A stretch of 64,000 bases of DNA from positions 5,828,001-5,892,000 of the forward strand of contig NZ_CP026304.1 in assembly GCF_003054555.1 (NCBI RefSeq), in the 5' to 3' direction. Below, piece after piece: positions 15,535 through 18,264 of this stretch (its first letter is position 1; every line of letters begins with the position of its first letter). The position numbers were made by a program, and so were the translations under genes. The notes beneath the pieces are model-generated. The model worked only from the letters and a program-made list of their open reading frames with translations, was not told where the DNA came from and made no database searches. The DNA comes from Streptomyces lunaelactis. Lineage in GTDB: Bacteria > Actinomycetota > Actinomycetes > Streptomycetales > Streptomycetaceae.

Positions 15535-16182
15535 ATGGCACGGCGATACGACTGCAACGACGCGACCGACCGTACGACTGGTCTGCGGGAAGCCGCGTCG
15601 GCCGTCCGCCGCGGCGAGCTGGTCGTGCTGCCCACCGACACCGTGTACGGGATCGGTGCGGACGCCTTCGGCTCCGAGGCGGTCGCCGACCTGCTGGAGG
15701 CCAAGGGTCGCGGCCGCAATATGCCCACCCCTGTCCTGATCGGATCCCCGAACACCCTGCACGGCCTGGTCACCGACTTCTCCGAGCAGGCCTGGGAGCT
15801 GGTCGACGCCTTCTGGCCCGGCGCGCTGACGCTGGTCGCCAAGCACCAGCCCTCGCTCCAGTGGGACCTGGGTGACACCCGGGGCACCGTCGCGATCCGG
15901 ATGCCGCTGCACCCGGTCGCGATCGAGCTGCTCACCGAGGTCGGCCCGATGGCGGTCTCCAGTGCGAACCTCACCGGGCACCCGGCGCCCGAGGACTGCG
16001 ACGCCGCGCAGGAGATGCTCGGCGACGCGGTCTCGGTCTATCTGGACGGCGGCCCCACGCCGGGCATCGTGCCGTCCTCGATCGTCGACGTCACGGGCAA
16101 GGTCCCGGTGCTGCTGCGTGAGGGAGCGCTCTCACCGGATGAACTGCGCAAGGTCGTACCCGACCTCGAGGTGGCCAATTGA
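15535..16182 (+). CDS. tsaC: L-threonylcarbamoyladenylate synthase (TsaC/Sua5 family)
   Basis: Makes threonylcarbamoyl-AMP from threonine, bicarbonate and ATP for the t6A37 modification of ANN-decoding tRNAs. The 215-aa YrdC domain protein shows VVLPTDTVYGIGADA, the nucleotide-binding FWPGALTLVAK and VAIRMPLHP, and SSANLTGHP. It lacks the extra C-terminal Sua5 domain. GAGGAGG lies upstream of the ATG. The stop overlaps the next start by 4 bp. Confidence 0.93.
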   Translation: MARRYDCNDATDRTTGLREAASAVRRGELVVLPTDTVYGIGADAFGSEAVADLLEAKGRGRNMPTPVLIGSPNTLHGLVTDFSEQAWELVDAFWPGALTLVAKHQPSLQWDLGDTRGTVAIRMPLHPVAIELLTEVGPMAVSSANLTGHPAPEDCDAAQEMLGDAVSVYLDGGPTPGIVPSSIVDVTGKVPVLLREGALSPDELRKVVPDLEVAN

Positions 16183-16853
16183 CCGCCCCTGAGGGGCGTG
16201 GCATAGCGGAATCCTGGGGGTCCTCCCGGACGGACTCTGGGGGAATCACCTCCACTTTCCGCATCCTCCACGTCAGCACCGGCAACGTCTGCCGCTCGCC
16301 GATCACCGAGCGGCTGACCCGGCATGCCCTGAGCGACCGCCTCGGCGATCCGCTCACGCGCGGCCTGATCGTGGAGAGTGCGGGCACCTGGGGCCATGAG
16401 GGCGCCCCGATGGAGGCCAACGCCGAGATCGTCCTCGCGGACTTCGGCGCGGACGCGACGGGGTTCGTCGGCCGTGAACTGCTCGACGAGCATGTGATCC
16501 GGGCGGATCTGGTGCTCACGGCGACGCGGGACCATCGCGCGCAGGTGATCTCGATGGGCCACTCGGCGGGCCTGCGGACCTTCACGCTCAAGGAGTTCAC
16601 CCGGCTCGTACGGGCCATAGACCCGGCGACGCTGCCGGATGCACGGGACGAGGGCGTGGTGGAACGCGCCCGCGCGCTGGTGCGCGCGGCGGCGGCACTG
16701 CGTGGCTGGCTGCTGGCGCCGAGCCCGGACGCGGATGAGGTGTACGACCCGTACGGGGCGCCGATCACGTTTTTCCGCTCGATCGGGGATGAGATCAACC
16801 AGGCGCTGGACCCGGTGGTGACCGCCCTGACGGGCGTCTCCGCGCGTCACTGA
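16179..16853 (+). CDS. Low-molecular-weight phosphatase homologue with Ser in place of the catalytic Cys
   Basis: The fold is recognisable from HVSTGNVCRSPITERL at residues 31-46, the P-loop of LMW protein-tyrosine phosphatases, and from a DPYG segment near the C-terminus that supplies the general acid. In active enzymes the loop is C-x-G-N-x-C-R-S; here the first Cys codon is AGC (Ser33), while Cys38 and Arg39 remain. Loss of the nucleophile predicts no classical phosphatase activity; phosphate or phosphoprotein binding is possible (inference). Start is TTG 16179, overlapping the tsaC stop as TTGA; I see no other in-frame start before the P-loop. The 25-residue N-terminal extension is Gly/Ser-rich. 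Confidence 0.8.
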   Translation: MTAPEGRGIAESWGSSRTDSGGITSTFRILHVSTGNVCRSPITERLTRHALSDRLGDPLTRGLIVESAGTWGHEGAPMEANAEIVLADFGADATGFVGRELLDEHVIRADLVLTATRDHRAQVISMGHSAGLRTFTLKEFTRLVRAIDPATLPDARDEGVVERARALVRAAAALRGWLLAPSPDADEVYDPYGAPITFFRSIGDEINQALDPVVTALTGVSARH

Positions 16854-16992: not shown

Positions 16993-18264
16993 ATGTCGGT
17001 CACCGCCGCACCAGACGCCGTCCGAATGACCCACCACGGCGCGGACTTCGACGCGCTGCGCCGGCAGGATCCCCAGATCGCCGAAGTGCTCCTGGGCGAG
17101 CTGGAGCGGCAGAGCGACAGCCTTCAGCTCATCGCCGCCGAGAACTTCACCTCGCCCGCCGTCCTCGCCGCCCTGGGCTCCCCGCTCGCCAACAAGTACG
17201 CCGAGGGCTACCCCGGCGCCCGCCACCACGGCGGCTGCGAGCTCGTCGACACCGCCGAGCGGATCGCCGTCGAGCGCGCCACCGCCCTCTTCGGTGCCGA
17301 GCACGCCAATGTGCAGCCGCACTCCGGCTCCTCCGCCGTACTCGCGGCCTACGCGGCGCTGCTCAAGCCCGGCGACTCGGTGCTCGCCATGGGCCTGCCG
17401 TACGGCGGTCACCTCACCCACGGCTCGCCCGCGAACTTCTCCGGGCGCTGGTTCGACTTCGTCGGGTACGGCGTCGACGCCGAGAGCGGACTTATCGACT
17501 ACGACCAGGTGCGCACCCTCGCGCGAACGCACCGGCCCAAGGCCATCGTCTGCGGTTCCATCTCCTATCCGCGCCATCCCGACTACGCCGCCTTCCGGGT
17601 GATCGCGGACGAGGTGGGGGCGTATCTGATCGCCGATGCCGCGCACCCCATGGGCCTCATCGCCGGCGGCGCGGCCCCCAGCCCCGTCCCGTACGCCGAT
17701 GTGGTGTGCGCCACCACCCACAAGGTCCTGCGCGGACCGCGCGGCGGAATGATCCTGTGCGGGTCCGAGCTCGCCGAGCGCATCGACCGGGCGGTCTTCC
17801 CGTTCACCCAGGGCGGTGCCCAGATGCACACGATCGCCGCCAAGGCCGTCGCCTTCGGTGAGGCGTCGACGCCGGCCTTCACGGCGTACGCCCATCAGGT
17901 CGTCGCCAACGCCCGCGTACTTGCCGACGGGCTCGAGGCGGAGGGCTTCGCGGTGCTCACGGGCGGCACCGACACCCATCTGATCAGCGCGGATCCGGCT
18001 CCGCTGGGCGTGGACGGCAGGAAGGCCCGCGGCCGGCTCGCCGCGGCGGGCATGGTCCTCGACACCTGTGCACTGCCGTACGGGGACGGGAGAGGCATCC
18101 GCCTGGGTACCGCTGCCGTCACCACCCAGGGCATGCGCGAGACGGAGATGGAGCGGATCACGGCCCTGTTCACTGCGGCGATGCGTGAAGAGGGCGAGGA
18201 GACGCGGAAGGTGCGTACGGAAGTACGCGAGCTGGCCGGTAGATTTCCGCCCTATCAGGGGTAG
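16993..18264 (+). CDS. glyA: Serine hydroxymethyltransferase (divergent paralogue)
   Basis: PLP enzyme interconverting serine and glycine with tetrahydrofolate. The 423-aa protein has the N-terminal LIAAENFTSPAV, KYAEGYPGARHHGGCE, and the PLP lysine K244 in TTHKVLRGPRGG. The canonical DMAHIAGLVAAG is altered to DAAHPMGLIAGG, so it belongs to a divergent branch; many actinomycetes carry more than one SHMT. ATG 16993 is 139 bp from the phosphatase homologue. Confidence 0.88.
   Translation: MSVTAAPDAVRMTHHGADFDALRRQDPQIAEVLLGELERQSDSLQLIAAENFTSPAVLAALGSPLANKYAEGYPGARHHGGCELVDTAERIAVERATALFGAEHANVQPHSGSSAVLAAYAALLKPGDSVLAMGLPYGGHLTHGSPANFSGRWFDFVGYGVDAESGLIDYDQVRTLARTHRPKAIVCGSISYPRHPDYAAFRVIADEVGAYLIADAAHPMGLIAGGAAPSPVPYADVVCATTHKVLRGPRGGMILCGSELAERIDRAVFPFTQGGAQMHTIAAKAVAFGEASTPAFTAYAHQVVANARVLADGLEAEGFAVLTGGTDTHLISADPAPLGVDGRKARGRLAAAGMVLDTCALPYGDGRGIRLGTAAVTTQGMRETEMERITALFTAAMREEGEETRKVRTEVRELAGRFPPYQG

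Follow-up and report, generated by a model that had tools for sequence, protein, structure and literature searches.

A gene of Streptomyces lunaelactis encodes a member of the low-molecular-weight protein tyrosine phosphatase (LMW-PTP) family in which serine occupies the position of the catalytic cysteine. The gene lies on the forward strand at positions 16179-16853 of the window, by which we mean the whole stretch of DNA analyzed here (64,000 nucleotides; contig NZ_CP026304.1, positions 5,828,001 to 5,892,000), and encodes 224 amino acids from a TTG start codon. Its product is probably a pseudophosphatase of the YwlE fold, predicted to bind phosphate, that lost Cys33 when the genus arose or close to that time and has been maintained by selection since. 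The substitution, its fixation in our sample, its independent recurrence, the purifying selection on the gene, the fold and the synteny were all computed.

Serine at the catalytic cysteine position

Translation gives a phosphate-binding loop (P-loop) of V32-S33-T34-G35-N36-V37-C38-R39-S40-P41 (VSTGNVCRSP) and, supported by alignments, an acid loop of D190-P191-Y192-G193 (16746-16757). Codon 33 (16275-16277) is AGC, and comparison with homologues places the encoded serine at the catalytic cysteine position; the loop from Ser33 to Ser40 (16275-16298) falls within the Pfam match. This bears out a sequence-only reading of the window, which had noticed that Ser33 replaces the attacking cysteine and that Arg39 and the DPYG acid loop remain. 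Where active LMW-PTPs have the cysteine nucleophile of a C-x5-R-[ST] motif, this protein has Ser33, while the P-loop arginine and acid-loop aspartate of the active enzymes are present as R39 and D190. The TTG at 16179 is the sole ATG, GTG or TTG codon upstream of the domain in that open frame. The Pfam LMWPc domain covers residues 29–149 with 59.6 bits against a cut-off of 23.2, and the AlphaFold2 model (predicted local distance difference test score, 88.7; predicted template modeling score, 0.84) has the LMW-PTP fold. The names given to homologues are protein-tyrosine phosphatase, LMW phosphatase and arsenate reductase; the protein is not identified as an arsenate reductase, since the NCBIfam ArsC models score 17 and 14.4 bits (cut-offs 215 and 174.3).

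The serine is not peculiar to one strain. A protein search returned 1138 relatives, and STGNVCRSP was found in the window protein and in each of the best 120 (121/121), some of which are metagenome proteins. All 28 sampled Streptomyces genomes likewise have serine at position 33 and the same P-loop letters, with an AGY codon in 25 and TCN in 3. Across the genomes sampled and these best 120 homologues, then, the serine is fixed in Streptomyces, a point that the sequence-only reading had raised as a check. Elsewhere in the Streptomycetaceae the picture is reversed: the sample covers 16 other genera, and cysteine occupies the position in 30/30 of the orthologues read, of which 23 came from protein searches and seven, all from genus g96, from a Ser-or-Cys pattern search in which another letter was hardly possible. 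The Cys relatives of genus g96 are 74–83% identical. A majority of orthologues with cysteine, which the sequence-only reading had named as a sign of a strain-specific error or mutation, is therefore true outside the genus and false inside it, as befits a clade-wide substitution.

A third search started from a Cys orthologue. Of its at least 593 stretches (548 relatives), the best 80 named loci were read, and 64 of them carry serine (AGC in 55, TCC in 9) and 16 cysteine. The Cys loci belong to Actinacidiphila (five), Streptantibioticus (two), Wenjunlia (one), Kitasatospora (one) and seven records named Streptomyces (DvalAA-14, CBMA29, PH10-H1, SPB162, SCUT-3, NRRL F-5123 and S. acidipaludis). 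We have taken these seven to lie outside the window's genus as defined by genome taxonomy, an assignment with direct support for SCUT-3 alone. Finally, 296 genomes of the class were searched with Ser-specific patterns (STGN[IMV]CR, with CGN for the arginine, then a WSN codon and Pro), which other Ser variants would escape. AGY patterns matched in 25 of these genomes, every one of the window's genus, and TCN patterns in eight, three of the window's genus and five of the Sporichthya family, for which five is the family total. Wherever the P-loop was read without presetting the letter, position 33 was either Ser or Cys.

Thr43 (16305-16307) is fixed jointly with Ser33 in Streptomyces: among the best 80 named loci it accompanies serine in 64/64, and Ala43 accompanies cysteine in 16/16. 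Most Ser rows of the Sporichthya search carry Ala43 (68, with Thr43 in 2), so Thr43 is not required for the Ser state. Together with Ser129 (16563-16565) it is fixed in the 28 Ser genes, and the Cys relatives have alanine at these positions in 30/30 and 27/30 cases, respectively; the two may possibly be compensating changes.

A few Cys orthologues vary elsewhere in the loop. One from a sister genus (L087, genome G205) reads CTGNICRGP, with glycine at the position of Ser40, where the P-loop serine of LMW-PTPs aids turnover, and several sister genera have CTGS[VI]CRSP, with serine for Asn36 (L076, L077, L080-L083, L085, L090, L091, L094 and L095). Another orthologue, at G258:C4:7825574-7826172, is broken across two open frames, probably by a sequencing error; its genome is 76% complete.

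Independent origins and purifying selection

In order to trace the substitution, trees were built with the Ser/Cys letter masked, initially from 111 rows and then, more carefully, from 82. The larger tree leaves out 2 of 113 rows, L087 and L134, both Cys, which the motif pattern had missed; the smaller drops 29 of the 111 as long branches or near copies. Both trees require three Ser/Cys changes, and the number stays at 3 across the whole 5–95% bootstrap range of the 82-row tree. On that tree all 13 Streptomyces-type Ser proteins group together in one clade (support 100/98) within the Cys Streptomycetaceae, and a second clade (100/100) unites 24 Ser and 2 Cys proteins, including Sporichthya and related metagenome sequences. 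Forcing all Ser proteins into one clade costs 168.5 log units (p = 5.6e-65 in the approximately unbiased test), which rules out the spread of a single Ser gene to both lineages. The codons also differ, with TCN in 5/5 Sporichthya-family genomes and mainly AGY in Streptomyces. Serine arose separately in Streptomyces and in Sporichthyaceae-type Actinomycetes.

The two Cys sequences of the second clade, P0158 and P0159, are nested among Ser proteins with starred branches around them and appear to be reversions from Ser to Cys; a Ser clade without them is weakly rejected (p = 0.04, for a group defined after inspection of the tree). Within the genus, AGY and TCN serines are interleaved on a 36-strain tree, with 3 codon-set changes (minimum 2). 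This can mean either that codons were switched under selection for serine or that more than one Cys-to-Ser event took place within the genus. All five Sporichthya-family genomes also carry a more distant Cys-type copy (L064-L069), with tsaC beside none of the six loci in the DNA examined.

The Ser genes remain under purifying selection. Their median pairwise ratio of nonsynonymous to synonymous substitution (dN/dS) is 0.17 (28 genes, 378 pairs). The corresponding values are 0.19 in the Cys sister genus g96 (45 pairs from 10 genes) and 0.32 over the 30 Cys genes together (435 pairs). Codon changes were counted on a tree of the 28 strains made from upstream DNA. Conserved four-fold sites averaged 7.0 changes, and codon 33 underwent 2, 2 and 1 changes at its three positions without altering the amino acid. 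Since 132 of the 194 codons show no amino-acid change either, the whole protein is conserved and codon 33 is not singled out. A sequencing error, a strain mutation or a decaying gene has next to no chance of being the explanation, refuted as it is by serine in 121/121 sequences and 28/28 genomes and by the dN/dS of the Ser genes.

Conservation extends to the rest of the active site. Across 185 Ser sequences (the window protein, the 64 Ser loci and the 120 homologues), no variation is seen in 112 of 197 domain columns, including N36, V37, S40, T43, E44 and D190-G193; for the 64 loci the letters S33, T34, G35, C38, R39 and P41 had been preset, and in the other 121 sequences they were freely read. 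The acid loop and the R39/D190 pair are invariant in the 28 Ser and 30 Cys genes, Asp190 is kept in 120/120 best homologues, and the acid-loop Asp-Pro is kept in the 69 Sporichthyaceae-type Ser sequences, whose P-loop letters were partly preset. A catalytic residue has thus been lost, the loss is fixed in a lineage and the gene is under selection, as expected of a pseudophosphatase.

Gene neighborhood and family members in the genome

The gene follows a tsaC-type gene for L-threonylcarbamoyladenylate synthase (15535-16182, forward strand; TIGR00057, 192.2 bits, cut-off 123.2), the stop codon of which overlaps the start codon of the phosphatase-like gene in the sequence TTGA (16179-16182). A glyA-type gene for serine hydroxymethyltransferase lies downstream on the same strand (16993-18264, start taken at ATG; NF000586, 493.3 bits, cut-off 335). 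Both assignments agree with synteny. Other neighbors are prfA (TIGR00019) and prmC (TIGR03534), both above their cut-offs, and the next gene encodes a Glycos_transf_4 protein that is nearest to wecA and below the cut-off of that model.

The order prmC–tsaC–gene is found at 28/28 Ser loci of the genus, 23/23 Cys loci of the family and 80/80 named loci, as well as at the 10 Ser loci of the five Sporichthya-family genomes. On the best reading, the Streptomyces gene is the orthologue of an actinobacterial, tsaC-linked, YwlE-like LMW phosphatase. More distant loci of the class are divided, 13 of 28 having the prmC–tsaC order and 15 lacking it; by position, then, some homologues in the tree are not orthologues.

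The sequence-only reading had coupled the putative pseudophosphatase to tsaC through the TTGA overlap. The overlap is present, but it is not tied to the Ser form: TTGA occurs at 68/86 Ser and 29/36 Cys loci, and GTGA adds 3 and 1 (71/86 and 30/36), in a crude count that located the tsaC stop by a motif; at least one stop was misplaced (L012), and nine further loci had no located stop. As a feature of the Ser form the overlap is ruled out, being equally found in Cys orthologues.

The conserved gene order and the stop–start overlap would also suit a protein whose fold serves some partner, perhaps one encoded near tsaC, as a scaffold or chaperone, with phosphate binding irrelevant. Many of the 112 invariant domain columns lie outside the active-site loops, which favors this idea. 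However, a scaffold should have drifted at Arg39, Asp190 and the P-loop; P-loop drift is seen in 0 of the 121 freely read sequences, and Asp190 and the Sporichthyaceae-type Asp-Pro are kept throughout. We therefore consider a scaffold improbable.

The S. lunaelactis genome contains a separate PtpA-type LMW-PTP with a Cys nucleophile (G000:C1:4319292), and a close Cys copy able to take over was not seen in this genome, the one examined. Two further proteins match LMWPc and were typed by motif as ArsC-like, which we take them to be (L002, G000:C1:5958741-5959103; L004, G000:C1:6446313-6446507). L004 matches only profile positions 24–91, has no P-loop in the matched frame and looks truncated or broken at its N-terminus.

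Proposed mechanism and comparison with known systems

The two-step reaction of LMW-PTPs needs a thiolate and should not run without one. With Ser33 the thiophosphate intermediate of ordinary turnover could not form, while the unchanged P-loop, through its backbone amides and Arg39, and the Asp190 loop would still bind a phosphoryl group carried by a protein or a small-molecule ligand. From the sequence we infer that ordinary activity is lost and phosphate binding retained; because the phosphate cradle is unchanged, phosphate binding is presumably still under selection. Such a pseudophosphatase may read, shield or sequester its phosphorylated ligand. Continued catalysis, with Ser33 or Cys38 as the nucleophile, is very unlikely. 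Cys38 is kept in 121/121 sequences, but the 30 Cys orthologues retain it just as well, and a Cys-to-Ser change abolishes turnover in LMW-PTPs.

Three points weigh against a selected phosphate-binding pseudophosphatase. The conservation of the P-loop could reflect structure rather than binding, given that the Cys orthologues show the same invariance at C38 and R39 and that 132 of 194 codons are free of amino-acid change altogether. The two nested Cys sequences of the Sporichthyaceae-type clade suggest that the Ser state can be reversed. In PRL phosphatases, Cys-to-Ser cuts CNNM binding more than 100-fold (PMC12192612); the substitution does not always trap, which weakens a simple trap reading.

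A different role for Ser33 would be to accept a phosphoryl group from an energy-rich donor, such as phosphoarginine, another P–N bond or an acyl phosphate. The resulting phosphoserine would be hydrolyzed slowly or never, yielding a single-turnover phosphate sink or a phosphorylation switch. This alternative agrees with the retention of Asp190, Arg39 and Ser40 and with the restriction of position 33 to Ser or Cys, where a hydroxyl or thiol may matter. It is also in keeping with PDB 4kk4, a structural match entitled ‘YwlE arginine phosphatase - C7S mutant with phosphorylated active site serine’, in which the same substitution at the same place carries phosphoserine. For 4kk4, the phosphoserine is taken from the title of the entry. 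However, the P-loop has Val37 rather than the threonine of YwlE, and two family searches of the S. lunaelactis genome found no match to a McsB-type arginine kinase, though control genomes gave none either. On balance an acceptor role seems unlikely. Somewhat more doubtful still is the conversion of a YwlE-like phosphatase, in situ and on at least two occasions, into a covalent acceptor whose Ser33 takes phosphate from an energy-rich phosphoprotein (a P–N or acyl phosphate) and keeps it as phosphoserine. If this is true, quality control or translation in Streptomyces would include a phosphate sink or a sensor of phosphorylation state; to our knowledge, no natural protein of the LMW-PTP fold is such a phosphoryl receiver.

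The natural pseudophosphatase proposed by the sequence-only reading accordingly stands as the best reading, with a nucleophile change fixed in the genus, purifying selection and an intact cradle. We found no report of the Streptomyces Ser type, or of any natural lineage-fixed Cys-to-Ser bacterial LMW-PTP, among the papers listed by a literature search whose coverage excluded most subscription papers. If the protein is a pseudoenzyme, the current names of its homologues mislead both phosphatase counts and the interpretation of knock-outs. A genus-wide natural substitution of the trapping type, with a second origin and an apparent reversion, offers a rare comparative test of selection on bacterial pseudophosphatases, for which the Cys relatives of genus g96 are ready-made controls, and a natural trap might serve as bait for its own ligand.

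Pseudophosphatases are already known from animals, where STYX and MK-STYX keep the fold and lose a catalytic feature; STYX, MK-STYX and PTPRU have dual-specificity or classical PTP folds, not that of LMW-PTPs. The retained phosphatase fold and lost catalytic feature of PTPRU and MK-STYX parallel the situation here. PtpA-type LMW-PTPs (M. tuberculosis, 1u2p) share family and fold with the Streptomyces protein and have a Cys nucleophile. The nucleophile Cys of the thioredoxin-type arsenate reductase ArsC is absent here; databases label the family ‘arsenate reductase/protein-tyrosine-phosphatase’.

The closest comparison is with YwlE, the protein arginine phosphatase of Bacillus and Geobacillus (4kk3, 4pic), which has Cys where the Streptomyces protein has Ser. 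The YwlE chains (~150 residues) align to the model over 149 residues between positions 27 and 221; relative to them the Streptomyces protein has an extra disordered N-terminus and an insert of ~42 residues that carries two helices in the model (145–186; 16611-16736, with approximate bounds taken from this alignment). The insert is present in Ser and Cys orthologues and absent from the aligned YwlE chains, and it might form a partner surface. The YwlE-type chains 4pic and 4egs have threonine at the variable position of the P-loop motif GNxCR, a residue held to select phosphoarginine. Val37 in its place speaks against phosphoarginine as the ligand, if that role of the threonine holds.

Arginine phosphorylation is reported in M. 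smegmatis, with its kinase and phosphatase not known there (PMC9604228). TsaD, which like TsaC acts in the threonylcarbamoyladenosine (t6A) pathway, is a McsB/YwlE target in B. subtilis (PMC7546277). A link of this phosphatase type to t6A synthesis is imaginable by that analogy, and not from any evidence in Streptomyces. Oxidative stress inhibits YwlE by way of a disulfide between its two active-site cysteines (PMC6429109); with Ser33 in place of one cysteine, a switch of this type would be gone as well. The C7S mutant of YwlE in 4kk4 has the same substitution at the same structural position as the Streptomyces protein; there it was engineered, whereas the Streptomyces change is a natural one that has become fixed in a genus.
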